Origin: Maribellus sediminis | GTDB taxonomy: Bacteria; Bacteroidota; Bacteroidia; Bacteroidales; Prolixibacteraceae | Length of the DNA stretch: 64,000 nt | Reading direction: 5' to 3' | NCBI RefSeq assembly: GCF_011799805.1 | Contig: NZ_WXUB01000005.1 | Span: 310,001 to 374,000, forward strand | Part shown: positions 59,494-64,000 of the stretch, piece by piece | Layout: each line of letters starts with the position of its first letter | How positions within the stretch are numbered: position 1 is the stretch's first letter | Notes under the pieces: model-generated | The model's database searches: none | The model's input: the letters and a program-made list of their open reading frames with translations, nothing else | Told to the model about the DNA's origin: nothing | Program-made: the position numbers and the translations under genes

Positions 59494-59616
59494 TGTTTGG
59501 TGATCCCCACGGAATTAAAACCTTATAGTTGATGAGATAAGATAAAGTAAGCTGTATGCCGCTTGTAGCAGTGTTTTATGCATTTGAGAAAAAGTAAGTA
59601 TCTAATAAAAATAAGT

Positions 59617-59677: not shown

Positions 59678-60970
59678 ATGGCAACCATTCGGTTAATGCT
59701 TTCGGGTAACTCCATTGTAGCACGTTTAACGGTCGGACGAGAAGCGAACTTTAGAAAAAGTACTGGTTATAAGGTCGAAGATTCTAACGACTGGATTAAA
59801 AGCTCGCAGACTATTTCAGCAGGTCGTGATAAGACAAAACGCGAACTTAAAAACAACGTGGATACTTTAAAAACATTACTTAATAAGCGGTTGCTTAACG
59901 AAGTTAATCCTGACGCTAAGTGGTTAGCCGATAACATTGCTGAAATCACAGGAAGAAAGAAGGCTACAGATGAAACTGTTTTGACGAACTATTTTGACTT
60001 GTTTATTGAAAAAGCGGGGAATAGAAAGGGCCGAAATGGGAAAGCGGTTTCAACAGGTAGAAAAAGACACTATGCTACTGCAAAAAACAAGGTTCTAATT
60101 TTTGACAATCACATAAAGCAAAAAACCCACATCAAAGATGTTGGAAAAGTATGGGGAGAGAGATTTATTGCATATTTAGAAAAGGAGCAGAGATTATCAA
60201 AAAGCACTATCGGAAATATGCTTAAAGTTGTTAAAGCTGTTTGCAATGAGGCAGCCCTATCCGGTTTCGAAGTTAATCCAACTTTAAAACATGTTTCAGT
60301 AATTCGCGAAGAAACCAAATTCGTTTATTTGAGCTTTAAAGAACTGGATAAAATCGAAGCAAAGGAATTGAAGCAAGACTATTTAGACAATGCTCGTGAT
60401 TGGCTGTTAATTGGCTGTAATATCGGACAACGAGTAAGTGACTTGCTTGACCTTACTGCGGATAGTATCAAACAAGTTGGTGGAATCGATGTGATCGAGC
60501 TACAGCAGAAGAAAACAGGGGAACTTGTTTCTATCCCTATTTCAGATACAGTTCAAAGGATTATTGATAAGCATTCGGGCTTTCCCCGATGTATTTCGGC
60601 ACAGAAGTTTAATACATATATCAAAAAAGTAGTTGAACTTACTGGAATTAAAGAAAAGGTTGAAGGAACTAAGCTCGATAATGTGGGTACCGAAAAAAAT
60701 CCGATATATCGAAAAGTGTCGGGAAGGTTTGAAAAACATGAGTTAGTTACTTCTCACATATGTAGGAGATCATTTGCATCCAATTACTATGAAACGGAGA
60801 TGCCTACGGAGTTAATAATGGCGATTACAGGTCACAAGACAGAAACTCAATTCAGAGAATATATCGGGCTTCCACCTCGTTCACATATCGGAAGAACATT
60901 TGACTATATGAAGCAGATTGAGCAGAAGCGGAAAAAGGAACCTGTTATGAATGTTAAAAGAGCTATGTAG
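59678..60970 (+). CDS. Tyrosine recombinase (integrase) of a mobile element
   Basis: This 430-residue enzyme would integrate and excise the element. It has an N-terminal arm-binding part (about 1-95), a SAM-like core-binding domain (about 100-210) and a catalytic domain with Arg252 (NIGQRVSDLL), Lys279 (QQKKTGEL), His360-x-x-Arg363 (SHICRRSF), His386 (ITGHKTET) and nucleophile Tyr395 (FREYIG). All catalytic residues are present, so it is likely active. It opens a string of plus-strand genes; the next begins right at its stop. Base composition looks more AT-rich than the left flank. Confidence 0.92.
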   Translation: MATIRLMLSGNSIVARLTVGREANFRKSTGYKVEDSNDWIKSSQTISAGRDKTKRELKNNVDTLKTLLNKRLLNEVNPDAKWLADNIAEITGRKKATDETVLTNYFDLFIEKAGNRKGRNGKAVSTGRKRHYATAKNKVLIFDNHIKQKTHIKDVGKVWGERFIAYLEKEQRLSKSTIGNMLKVVKAVCNEAALSGFEVNPTLKHVSVIREETKFVYLSFKELDKIEAKELKQDYLDNARDWLLIGCNIGQRVSDLLDLTADSIKQVGGIDVIELQQKKTGELVSIPISDTVQRIIDKHSGFPRCISAQKFNTYIKKVVELTGIKEKVEGTKLDNVGTEKNPIYRKVSGRFEKHELVTSHICRRSFASNYYETEMPTELIMAITGHKTETQFREYIGLPPRSHIGRTFDYMKQIEQKRKKEPVMNVKRAM

Positions 60971-60971
60971 T

Positions 60972-61646
60972 ATGGGATTTATAGCGAAAGCCAACAATTT
61001 TTTCATGCAACTCCAATATGACTTCGCAATTTCTGATGGATTCTATGAGGTTGAATTAGGATTTCAGAAAGCTTACCAACCTACTCCTGAGCAGTTTGTT
61101 GAGATAATCGAAAAGTACGGAATTGATTATCCATTTCTTGCGGGAGCAAAGATTGTCGAATTAAAGAATTTAGCAAAGAAAGATGGTTTTACAAATCAGG
61201 AAGCCATTAATCTGTTTAATGAGCTTAAGACAACTTACTGGACGGCAAATGGAGTAGTTCAACTTTATAGCCCCTCTGGGGTAGATGTATTACGATATCT
61301 ACAAGAAACTCGTCAAGATATATTTGAGCAACTTGTAGAATCGTTCGGAAGAAAGGGAGCTAAGATAGAACTTCGTCATGTAAAGCTGTTCTGCGAACTA
61401 TGTAACGCTTCTGGTTTGGTAAGTCTTAATGATTTTAGTTCAGTTGAGAAATATTGTGAATTCGTGCTGCAGAAATACAATATTGATTTTACCATAAGGC
61501 GAGTTAAATATTTTGCGGAAAGGGTAAACGAGATAGACGATATTGGATTGGCGGAAGAAGTTAAGGAATTAATTCTCCCAAAAATTCCAGAACCTGATCG
61601 AATGAAAATTCAAGAAAAGATTAAACAAGCCGGCAACTTTATTTAG
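60972..61646 (+). CDS. Mobile-element protein, unknown
   Basis: This 224-residue protein (MGFIAKANNFFMQLQYDFA...) is mostly helical by composition, with no signal or membrane segment. No family is recognised. The frame has an earlier ATG at 60951 that overlaps the integrase by 20 bases; the ATG at 60972, one base after the integrase stop, is favoured as a coupled start. A terminator overlaps its stop, so it ends the integrase transcript. Confidence 0.65.
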   Translation: MGFIAKANNFFMQLQYDFAISDGFYEVELGFQKAYQPTPEQFVEIIEKYGIDYPFLAGAKIVELKNLAKKDGFTNQEAINLFNELKTTYWTANGVVQLYSPSGVDVLRYLQETRQDIFEQLVESFGRKGAKIELRHVKLFCELCNASGLVSLNDFSSVEKYCEFVLQKYNIDFTIRRVKYFAERVNEIDDIGLAEEVKELILPKIPEPDRMKIQEKIKQAGNFI

Positions 61647-61658: not shown

Positions 61659-61741
61659 GTCTTTTTTTTGTCCCGGACATTCAAAAGGACACTTATCAAA
61701 GTGGGCTAAACTTGCTTGCAGAAACTACAAAAATTACGAAT

Positions 61742-61996
61742 ATGCAAGCAGTAACTATCGTTCAAATTACAATTGATGAACTCGAAGAAAGAATTAGTAA
61801 AGCAGTTCAGTCAAGTTTAAAAACTCCTAAAGAAGCAGAGGAGTTCATTCCACGAAAAGAGTTGGCCGCTAAACTCGGAGTAACACTACCTACCATTGAT
61901 CAATGGAGGCGCGAAGGCAGAATTAAAGCCTATGCGATTGACAGAAAAGTTTATTTCAAACGCTCCGAAATTGAACAGGCTATGAAGCCTGTTTAA
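61742..61996 (+). CDS. Excisionase-like helix-turn-helix protein
   Basis: This 84-residue protein has a coiled start (ITIDELEERISKAV) and a winged-helix MerR/Xis-type motif: EFIPRKELAAKLGVTLPTID, then WRREGRIKAYAIDRKVYFK. In Bacteroidota mobile elements such proteins act as excisionases or regulators near the integrase. The ATG at 61742 is taken over an upstream TTG because the family normally starts close to the DEL(E)ERI segment. Confidence 0.82.
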   Translation: MQAVTIVQITIDELEERISKAVQSSLKTPKEAEEFIPRKELAAKLGVTLPTIDQWRREGRIKAYAIDRKVYFKRSEIEQAMKPV

Positions 61997-62089
61997 TAGG
62001 GTTCTAATCCTTGCAGAACTAATAAAGTGTGTGTTAAGTACTTGGAGCATAGGTGTTATGCAAAGAGTGGTAACAACATTCTGTACAAC

Positions 62090-63349
62090 ATGAGCGTGGG
62101 CAACGAAAAATATAAGTATTCTCAACTGATTCCTTGGCGAATTTTCGAAGACATTCAAGAGATTGAAAATCATGTCAAGCCGAAAATAAAAGGTTATAAA
62201 CGGGAGTATCTTTTTGAAGTTATTTCATTAGTTGCCTCAAAAATCAGAAAAGAAGAAAATGGTGATGAATCAGGTCAACTGCAAATAAAATACCTTAAAG
62301 ATTTAGTGCCCCAAGGTCATCTCTATTTGTATGAACTGATTGACCTTGGTATAATAATTCGCACTGGTCGCTATTTGGTTGGAGATAGAAGCTTTAGTTA
62401 TAAGTTCTCTGAAAACTTCAATGGTAAGTACAAACGAATTGAACTTAGCAATATGAAGTTGTTAAGACGAATTGAGAAAGTCCATCAATCCAGTAGGCAA
62501 AAACTGAAATCTTCGACGAGAGGTAGGTCGGAACAGATTAAGAATTTACGGAAACTAAAAATAGAGGATGCGGTTTTCGATGAAATTGAAAGGTTGTATC
62601 CAGATGGAGAAAATCAAAAATATAACTATGCTTTGAGTGTGGCAGTAGGTATCAAAAACGGAGCAATCAGGTACAATGTCGACAAAACATCACAGAGATT
62701 TCATTCAAACGTCACGAATTTGCCAAGTGCATTGGTTCCATTCTTGCGAATAGATGGTAAAGAACTTTCAGAGGTTGATATTAAAAATTCACAACCGTTT
62801 CTAAGTTCCATCTTATTTACAAATCCATCAAAATTTTCTTTTCTCGCAGATGAAGAATTTGCAATGATTCTACAGTCTCTGCAAGTGAATGTTAGCGAGG
62901 ATGTTATGCGTTATCTTTCACTTGTAACGTCAGGACATATTTACGAGTTTGTTCAAGATGAGGCTGTGAAATACAACCTGGTTCTTGATAGAGATTCGGC
63001 TAAGTCGCATGTATTTAGATTTCTTTTCGGTGCGATTTACACTCCAAAACAACATGAAAAGAAAAGTGTGAATGAAATCTTCTATAATAATTTCCCAACC
63101 GTTTGCTCTGTCCTAACTCAGCTAAAGAAATGTCACTACAAGAGTCTTGCGATTTTCCTTCAAAGAATTGAATCATACCTAATGCTTGAAATTATCGGCA
63201 AGCGGATTGATTCGGAAATTGGAGTTTTTCTTACGAAGCATGATTCTATTCTTCTGACCGATAATGTTGAAGGTGCAAAAAAAATTGTAAACGAAGTTTT
63301 TTCTGACTTTCTGAGTATCACACCTAAGTTAAAAGTAAAGAAGGGATAG
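62090..63349 (+). CDS. Mobile-element protein with family A / T7-type polymerase-like motifs
   Basis: This 419-residue protein is unnamed in anything I can recall, but its C-terminal half carries what look like the polymerase palm and fingers motifs in order: RFHSNVTNLP (203-212), motif A-like SEVDIKNSQP (Asp230), motif B-like AKSHVFRFLFGAIY (Lys305, then Phe313-Gly314; the K-x7-aromatic-Gly spacing equals that of T7 RNA polymerase), and motif C-like TKHDSILL (His384-Asp385). The N-terminal 180 residues look like a helical DNA-binding part (QLKIKYLKDLV region). It may replicate or prime the element. The ATG at 62090 is used instead of a GTG at 62027. Catalytic competence is inferred, not shown. 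Confidence 0.6.
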   Translation: MSVGNEKYKYSQLIPWRIFEDIQEIENHVKPKIKGYKREYLFEVISLVASKIRKEENGDESGQLQIKYLKDLVPQGHLYLYELIDLGIIIRTGRYLVGDRSFSYKFSENFNGKYKRIELSNMKLLRRIEKVHQSSRQKLKSSTRGRSEQIKNLRKLKIEDAVFDEIERLYPDGENQKYNYALSVAVGIKNGAIRYNVDKTSQRFHSNVTNLPSALVPFLRIDGKELSEVDIKNSQPFLSSILFTNPSKFSFLADEEFAMILQSLQVNVSEDVMRYLSLVTSGHIYEFVQDEAVKYNLVLDRDSAKSHVFRFLFGAIYTPKQHEKKSVNEIFYNNFPTVCSVLTQLKKCHYKSLAIFLQRIESYLMLEIIGKRIDSEIGVFLTKHDSILLTDNVEGAKKIVNEVFSDFLSITPKLKVKKG

Positions 63350-63438: not shown

Positions 63439-63600
63439 ATGAAGACGGAAGAATTAGTTGAACTGGCTCGGTCAGATAGTTTTTACCACAAACAGACTGC
63501 AGTACTTGAAATGTATAAGCGTGGGTGGACGGTTAGCAAGATAATTGAAGAAACTGGAATACGGGAGTTTGAAATAAGGTACTTTTTAAGTTTAAATTGA
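63439..63600 (+). CDS. Small helix-turn-helix-like protein, unknown
   Basis: The 53-residue frame begins MKTEELVELARSDSFYHKQT and ends with a segment YKRGWTVSKIIEETGIREFE that fits a helix-turn-helix (resolvase- or sigma-like: turn at the Gly of ETGI). It lies on the plus strand, 89 bases after the polymerase-like gene. An A-rich leader precedes the ATG. No family is named. Confidence 0.5.
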   Translation: MKTEELVELARSDSFYHKQTAVLEMYKRGWTVSKIIEETGIREFEIRYFLSLN

Positions 63601-63765: not shown

Positions 63766-64000
63766 TTAAAGTAGATCTGCTCCTGTTTTACTTGATTCTG
63801 CTTCTTGTTTTTTTCGGGCTTGGTATTCTTGTTCTGCAATATCAGTACGGTTAATATTCAGTAATAGATTATATTCAACTCCGTTGCATCTTACAATTAC
63901 ATCTATATCCTTGTTCCCTAATTCCCAACTTGAACATGATGCTATGTCTCCTTTGTTTAACTCATTCCATTTTGGCAGACCTTTCTCGCTTTTAGGCTCT
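63766..64000 (-). CDS. Unknown protein, C-terminal 78 residues (gene continues past the window)
   Basis: The minus strand is open from the window edge to the stop TAA at 63766-63768. It encodes PKSEKGLPKWNELNKGDIAS, then VIVRCNGVEYNLLLNINRTD and a charged helical end rich in Gln, Lys and Glu. No family is recognised. Codon use and frame length support a real gene, and it converges with the plus-strand genes of the element. Confidence 0.55.
   Translation of the reverse strand, partial: EPKSEKGLPKWNELNKGDIASCSSWELGNKDIDVIVRCNGVEYNLLLNINRTDIAEQEYQARKKQEAESSKTGADLL

Follow-up and report, generated by a model that had tools for sequence, protein, structure and literature searches.

Does a small mobile element in the genome of Maribellus sediminis carry a polymerase of its own and, if so, of which kind and for what task? 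The question is raised by a gene near the right end of the stretch of DNA analysed here (64,000 nucleotides of contig NZ_WXUB01000005.1; hereafter the window, to which positions refer). Its reading frame, on the plus strand, encodes 419 amino acids from an ATG at 62090 to position 63349; an alternative GTG at 62027 would give 440. A first-pass annotation had described the product, here called POL, as a T7/family A polymerase-like protein of a small integrated element, citing an Asp, a Lys-x7-Phe-Gly and a His-Asp-Ser motif in that order. Frame, length and motifs are indeed as described. The ordered pattern D..K-x7-[FY]G..HD[SE] is found in just one of the 38 stop-to-stop frames of at least 200 aa in the window, POL itself; it also turned up in 46 of 20,000 shuffled versions of POL, so that the motif evidence from the single sequence is modest and conservation has to decide. 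POL has no match in Pfam or PHROGs at E ≤ 10, PF00476 (DNA polymerase I) and PF00940 (RNA_pol) included, and a single noise row in NCBIfam (E 0.1). The host genome encodes a Pol I besides POL.

That POL belongs to a small integrated element was borne out by an integrase gene, by att repeats at a tRNA and by a sister copy elsewhere. The element measures 9.75 kb, is flanked by 13-bp repeats that correspond to the 3′ end of tRNA-Arg(CCG), and has a GC content of 35.5% against about 43% in the flanks. The part of it that falls in the window comprises:

59500..59512, no strand: attL, 13-bp repeat GTGATCCCCACGG
59678..60970, plus strand: tyrosine recombinase, the integrase (PF00589 1e-8, PF13102 1.6e-8, phrog_1 1.7e-24)
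60951..61646, plus strand: 231-aa protein, in a variable slot between the integrase and HTH genes
61742..61996, plus strand: small HTH_17/excisionase-like DNA-binding protein (PF12728 6.3e-9, TIGR01764 1.2e-7, phrog_66 2.6e-11), its frame open from a TTG at 61712
62090..63349, plus strand: POL, an N-terminal winged-helix-like domain and a family-A polymerase core (from model, fold search, profiles and alignments)
63439..63600, plus strand: 53-aa ORF with a counterpart of 98% identity in the sister element
63766..64000, minus strand: hypothetical protein, C-terminal part; continues beyond the window (L031:8767-9579)

The right repeat, attR, is found outside the window, in window-frame numbering at 69237-69249 (G000:C9:379237-379249, which is L031:14238-14250), at the 3′ end of the tRNA-Arg(CCG). 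The remaining genes, also outside (L031:9827-13979, window-frame 64826-68978), encode a 979-aa DndB/DpdB-like protein (PF14072, DpdB) and, adjoining it, a 401-aa D12-class adenine methyltransferase; together the two cargo genes have the look of a pair serving defence or DNA modification. No Pfam replication or helicase family was found on the six other element proteins scanned. The 231-aa protein matched no family above cut-off (AP_endonuc_2, at E 0.0058, lies below it), and the C-terminal 231 residues of the hypothetical protein at 63766..64000 matched no Pfam family.

The same element is present in another species of the genus (genome G422), at the same kind of tRNA, with GTGATCCCACCGG, a repeat allele of its own, at both ends. 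Its main block is 93.9% identical in nucleotide sequence and its integrase block 89.1%; integrase, HTH protein and POL are 88-94% identical, POL itself 93%. The slot of the 231-aa gene holds a gene for a 141-aa protein there (32% identity over 87 aa) and looks, from this comparison, cassette-like. We had considered the 231-aa protein as an obligate partner of POL and rejected it, since another protein replaces it in the sister element. To the right of the element, four host proteins are 52-65% identical between the two species; the left flank has no long match. The two elements are best read as separate insertions that would have followed horizontal transfer. A query joining the two flanks had matches in 33 of the 37 genomes of the genus which, outside the window's own genome, covered only its right, tRNA-bearing part, and no full empty site was found among the 37. 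Integrase, HTH protein and POL recur together in a further genome (G403), at 40, 34 and 44% identity.

Single-protein scans of the genome and viral contig collections with POL returned no relative. A whole-protein search returned 30 loci, one being the window's own (L001) and one (L022) having no phmmer match at E ≤ 1e-3; the remaining 28 relatives, which were not chosen by motif and are 17-27% identical to POL, were aligned with it (alignment A1, 29 sequences). R203, D230, Y285, K305, P336, E361 and D385 are invariant in A1, Q235 and Q358 are present in 28 of 29 members and H384 in 27. It is this conservation that confirms the observation of the first-pass annotation. Pattern scans with a further alignment (A2) picked up 128 loci, 62 of them viral and 66 in genomes, and every one carries the POL family by hmmsearch (131 frames). 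With frames shorter than 370 aa and loci L144 and L153 removed, and after thinning to below 80% identity, 92 sequences including POL made up alignment A3, in which R203, D230, Y285, K305, E361, H384 and D385 are found in 92/92. Motif A is biased in A3, having been used in the scan patterns, one of which (viral) also spans R203; the columns of Y285, K305, E361, H384 and D385 are free of this bias. Motif B stood in part: position 313 is Phe or Tyr in 29/29 and 92/92, and the Gly that should follow is present in only 4/29 and 32/92, for which reason we discarded "FG" as a signature. R301 is found in 25/29 and 79/92, with Lys in 14 of the 17 others. The parts of POL, all on the plus strand, are:

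62102..62461: residues 5-124, predicted winged-helix-like domain (model pLDDT 90.9; weak matches only)
62696..62698: R203, candidate β-hairpin Arg, aligned with the TGRLSS Arg of Pol I (29/29, 92/92)
62777..62797: motif A, D230-I-K-N-S-Q235-P236 (alignments; strand 227-231 in the model)
62990..63031: motif B, R301-x3-K305-x7-F313, within helix 301-313 (alignments, model)
63161..63172: Q358-x2-E361, within helix 350-376; also in TV-Pol-like proteins (see below) as L-[LI]-Q-x2-E
63239..63247: motif C, H384-D385-S386, in hairpin 380-383/386-389 (alignments, model)

One A1 and one A3 member match NUMOD1/GIY-YIG homing-endonuclease models, and another A3 member NUMOD4/HNH; the NUMOD1/GIY-YIG matches are presumably the 730-aa proteins L103:7815-10004 and L003, which have a long C-terminal extension after motif C.

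Structure prediction places these residues in a polymerase-like order. The AF2 model built from A3 (mean pLDDT 93.7, pTM 0.90) begins with a winged-helix-like N-terminus, continues with helices 122-142 and 175-189, which are candidates for a thumb, and then has a hairpin near R203, the Arg itself sitting between strands 195-197 and 204-206. Strand 227-231 follows with D230 near its end, then a fingers helix (301-313) with R301 and K305, a long helix (350-376) with Q358 and E361, and a hairpin (380-383/386-389) with the HD of motif C in its turn. Compared with the PDB by Foldseek, the model had 363 matches at E ≤ 10 and 33 at E ≤ 0.001, and all of the latter are A-family DNA polymerases (apPol, KlenTaq and variants, the apicoplast polymerase, mycobacterial Pol1, T7 DNA polymerase and pol theta). 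The family-A half of the annotation's assignment is thereby upheld, in palm and fingers; its T7 RNA polymerase half is not, as discussed below. TM-scores by query length are 0.20-0.39, with large rmsd, among the best 50 of the 363 matches; being below 0.4, they mean that the placement rests on fold search and motifs rather than on close superposition. Against predicted viral structures (BFVD), 34 of 483 matches reached E ≤ 0.001, led by A0A516L5C2 (E 1.8e-24, TM 0.74) and a "Putative DNA polymerase I [uncultured marine phage]" (E 4.3e-20); the 34 also include, at E 3.4e-4, a DNA replication protein from a Zamilon virus. A separate model of the N-terminal 120 residues (60 sequences, pLDDT 90.9) had no PDB match at E ≤ 0.001 among 229 at E ≤ 10 (best E 0.23). 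Most of the best 50 of these 229 are winged-helix proteins, going by their titles and by the folds we take them to have, and they include domain 1 of RctB, the N-domain of DnaD, proteins of the MarR and ArsR types and an entry with the title "Structure of initiator". This domain of the model is likely a winged helix.

A polymerase of this build has precedents. Iyer, Abhiman and Aravind described in 2008 the TV-Pols, A-family polymerases of transposons and viruses with 400-600 residues (PMC2579912); at 419 aa POL is therefore not "far smaller than known members", as had been claimed, and we rejected the notion of a categorically new minimal polymerase. As presented in the text of that paper, TV-Pols have a thumb, an absolutely conserved hairpin Arg, two Asp, and an Asp and RxxxK in the fingers; they reside in mobile elements, those of bacteroidetes included, with integrases, resolvases, transposases or D5-like helicases (the last for part of the family only), and are predicted to have primase and polymerase activity (PMC2579912). 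POL falls in this size range, has no nuclease domain, has an A-family core, and sits in a mobile element of a bacteroidete beside an integrase. It has the two palm Asp (D230, D385), the hairpin Arg (R203) and RxxxK (R301, K305), and its motif A (D-x3-[SC]-[QH]) and L-[LI]-Q-x2-E are shared with the TV-Pol-like proteins gathered here. The most Asp-rich fingers column is 271, with Asp in 55% of A1 and 32% of A3; the text of the TV-Pol paper leaves its column unspecified. POL differs in that its element has no D5-like helicase among the six other proteins scanned, which we do not treat as excluding, and in that its N-terminal domain is predicted to be winged-helix-like whereas that of TV-Pols is given as all-helical (PMC2579912); sequence identity is very low.

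Sequence profiles were compared as well. A PDB search with A1 gave one weak match, an A-family polymerase (E 0.51), and one with A3 gave six, again weak and all of them pol theta of family A (E 0.18-0.92). By hhalign, A3 aligned to the C-terminal 430 residues of 20 Pol I sequences and T7 gp5 with a score of 30.6 (probability 9%, P 0.0038) over residues 188-418; R203, R301, K305 and H384-D385 fell on their Pol I counterparts and S234-Q235 on the S-Q of DYSQ, with D230 two residues before the Pol I aspartate. The palm, fingers and thumb order is also that of Pol I and T7 gp5, from which POL differs in having no exonuclease domains, HDS instead of HDE, and D-x3-S-Q instead of D-Y-S-Q. Four TV-Pol-like proteins (from phage LMM01, two Polaromonas plasmids and, as a fragment, a Calothrix plasmid) gave a score of 39.3 (probability 42%, P 2.6e-4) over residues 199-316, with R203, D230 and K305 in register; all four were assigned by motif and search, phage Ma-LMM01 being the only one named in the text of PMC2579912. 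None of the 100 column shuffles made for each set reached its score (maxima 22.3 for Pol I and 21.7 for the TV-Pol-like set), and reversed alignments gave 19.5 and 13.1. The letters of motif A in the four (YDVVKCH, YDIENCH, YDLSNCH and YDLKSSQ, vs VDIKNSQ in POL) are the reason why motif A of the POL family looks to us more like that of TV-Pol-like proteins than that of Pol I. L-[LI]-Q-x2-E is present in three of them, the Calothrix piece stopping earlier, and by eye none has an Arg at the fourth position ahead of the motif-B Lys. With the phage LMM01 protein alone, hhalign gave a weak, N-terminal alignment only, and searches for TV-Pols that started from a single seed brought up either close copies or a very small number of sequences. 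On the 7.2-kb Polaromonas plasmid pW9NP1 the TV-Pol-like gene (L213:37-2497), annotated as hypothetical, lies directly before a RepA gene.

Counting the window's own genome each time, the whole-protein search had matches in 26 of 395 genomes of the class (E ≤ 0.001), profile A3 in 29 of 395, or about 7% (E ≤ 1e-5), and 5 of 37 genomes of the genus carry the family. One plasmid record matches, from Hymenobacter qilianensis, and so do six phage records of 595-735 kb. In a FastTree tree (379 columns) POL groups with L094-L096 and one clade of 25 sequences is entirely viral, both with support 1.0. Outside viruses, relatives keep company with integrases: of 69 genome loci (the 66 scanned loci plus L031, L167 and L168), 51 have a tyrosine recombinase no further than 4 kb away, as does 1 of 62 viral loci, and 25 of the 69 have an HTH gene within 1 kb. 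Among neighbour proteins (82 scanned of 190 eligible), DUF3871 and AAA_24 matched 10 each and restriction-modification families are frequent; neither D5 nor DnaB helicase is among the 25 families listed of 77, and ResIII and DEAD matched 2 each. Genes for DUF3871 and for AAA_24 are each found at up to 4 kb from POL in 16 genome loci (for example L101:5710-6744 and L103:5573-6451, respectively), and possibly mark a second element type.

Very large phages, up to 735 kb, also carry relatives (LR756511, LR756501-LR756504 and LR745206; also the contigs of L033 and L061). From the 62 viral contigs we took ten long ones, though not strictly the ten longest (143-476 kb; they may be fragments), and examined them with phage T4 as positive control for the DnaG-like primase and DnaB-like helicase profiles. 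PolB was found in nine, the DnaG-like primase profile in six and the DnaB-like helicase profile in eight (in one only at E 6.9e-4), and PF00476 and PolIII alpha in none. The POL relatives are therefore not the only replicase there nor, in six contigs, the only primase; the idea that they serve large phages as sole replicase was rejected on the PolB count. In two contigs (G555 and G560) the PolB matches fall into two regions far from each other, as though PolB were split.

That POL descends from A-family polymerases is very probable. As to its function, we think it on balance probable that POL is a TV-Pol-type family-A DNA polymerase, and probably a primase-polymerase, which would replicate the tRNA-Arg-integrated 9.75-kb element after excision. 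One could envision that the integrase, aided by the HTH/excisionase-like protein, excises the element, and that the winged-helix-like domain (about residues 5-124) holds POL on element DNA. The core of thumb, palm and fingers (about 122-419) would then polymerise deoxynucleotides, D230 and D385 binding metal and K305 contacting the incoming nucleotide, a role that we presume to carry over from Pol I. In this way POL may start DNA synthesis, perform it, or both, on the circular element or on a form transferred as a single strand and, as a primase-polymerase, would probably hand over to host enzymes.

The CCPol of SCCmec extends primers alone and, together with its partner MP, primes with dNTPs as a proven primase; D169A and D324A abolish priming (PMC7581432). 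MP-like partners are OB folds (PMC10061031). POL shares with these systems an A-family core on an integrative element and two catalytic Asp. Its element differs in having no helicase operon or identified OB-fold partner and a tyrosine instead of a large serine recombinase, and POL has a winged-helix-like domain where theirs have a partial exonuclease domain. The need of CCPol for MP (PMC7581432), set beside an element in which neither helicase nor OB-fold partner was identified, speaks against POL priming replication, and the DnaG-like primase and PolB co-encoded in large phages weaken both this reading and any simple story of primase replacement. Might POL then be an active family-A DNA polymerase that only extends 3′ ends, in gap filling, repair or second-strand completion after single-stranded transfer? 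CCPol by itself does just that, and the PolB and primase counts of the large viral contigs suit this view; initiation is suggested instead by the winged-helix-like domain and by an element that is small and has, besides POL, no gene recognised as serving replication. We hold extension alone to be unlikely, if a serious contender. A bolder proposal makes POL a one-protein initiator, primase and polymerase at once, whose winged helix recognises the origin and whose core starts DNA without helicase or OB-fold partner. The elements would be satellite-like and defence-carrying, with the TV-Pol as their only replication gene, and the relatives in huge phages would perform an origin-specific step beside PolB. 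We regard this as rather improbable.

The other possibilities are harder to sustain. A T7-like single-subunit RNA polymerase, transcribing the element or making RNA primers, would account for K-x7-[FY], for the HDS of motif C, for mitochondrial RNA polymerase further down the Foldseek list (E 5e-3 to 9e-3) and for sub-threshold matches of family members to PF00940 (3/29, best E 0.021; 2/92, best 0.018) and to phrog_2051 "RNA polymerase" (1/29, E 0.03). However, POL is half the length of such enzymes, none of the 33 best PDB matches is an RNA polymerase, and the hhalign score against T7 RNAP, taken as a single sequence, is 17.2, inside the shuffle null of the other comparisons. The residue five positions after the motif-A Asp is Gly in T7-like RNA polymerases and Glu in Pol I; in the POL family it is Gln in 28/29 (His once), a contrast valid only if D230 is in the register of the catalytic Asp. 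This steric-gate argument for dNTPs loses weight through the Pol I alignment, in which D230 is displaced by two residues. We consider RNA synthesis by POL highly unlikely. A main role in defence or counter-defence, not in element replication, has a very slim chance in our view: it would fit the DndB/DpdB-like and methylase cargo and the restriction-modification families around relatives, and a defence role has been raised for PolA-SSB pairs (PMC10061031), but integrases form the largest cluster of neighbours (present at no more than 4 kb in 49 genome loci, against 17 for the next clusters) and a PADLOC search with POL gave nothing at E ≤ 0.001. That POL is a degenerate or inactive remnant is scarcely credible given its intact frame, its invariant catalytic residues and the 93% identity of the copy in the other species.

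We return, then, to a TV-Pol-type polymerase serving its element. In the searchable literature on Bacteroidota elements, DUF3871, satellites and huge-phage polymerases, as far as its accessible text goes, nothing is recognisable as the POL family, which we see as a branch of a known kind, unnamed there; it may already be included in the TV-Pol supplement or alignment of PMC2579912. The family has no Pfam model in our scans and occurs in about 7% of the sampled genomes of the class and in very large phages, which could give a name to proteins annotated as hypothetical today. The element itself, compact, bounded by att sites and with an intact TV-Pol-type gene among few others, offers a clean setting for asking whether an enzyme of this kind may prime without a partner.
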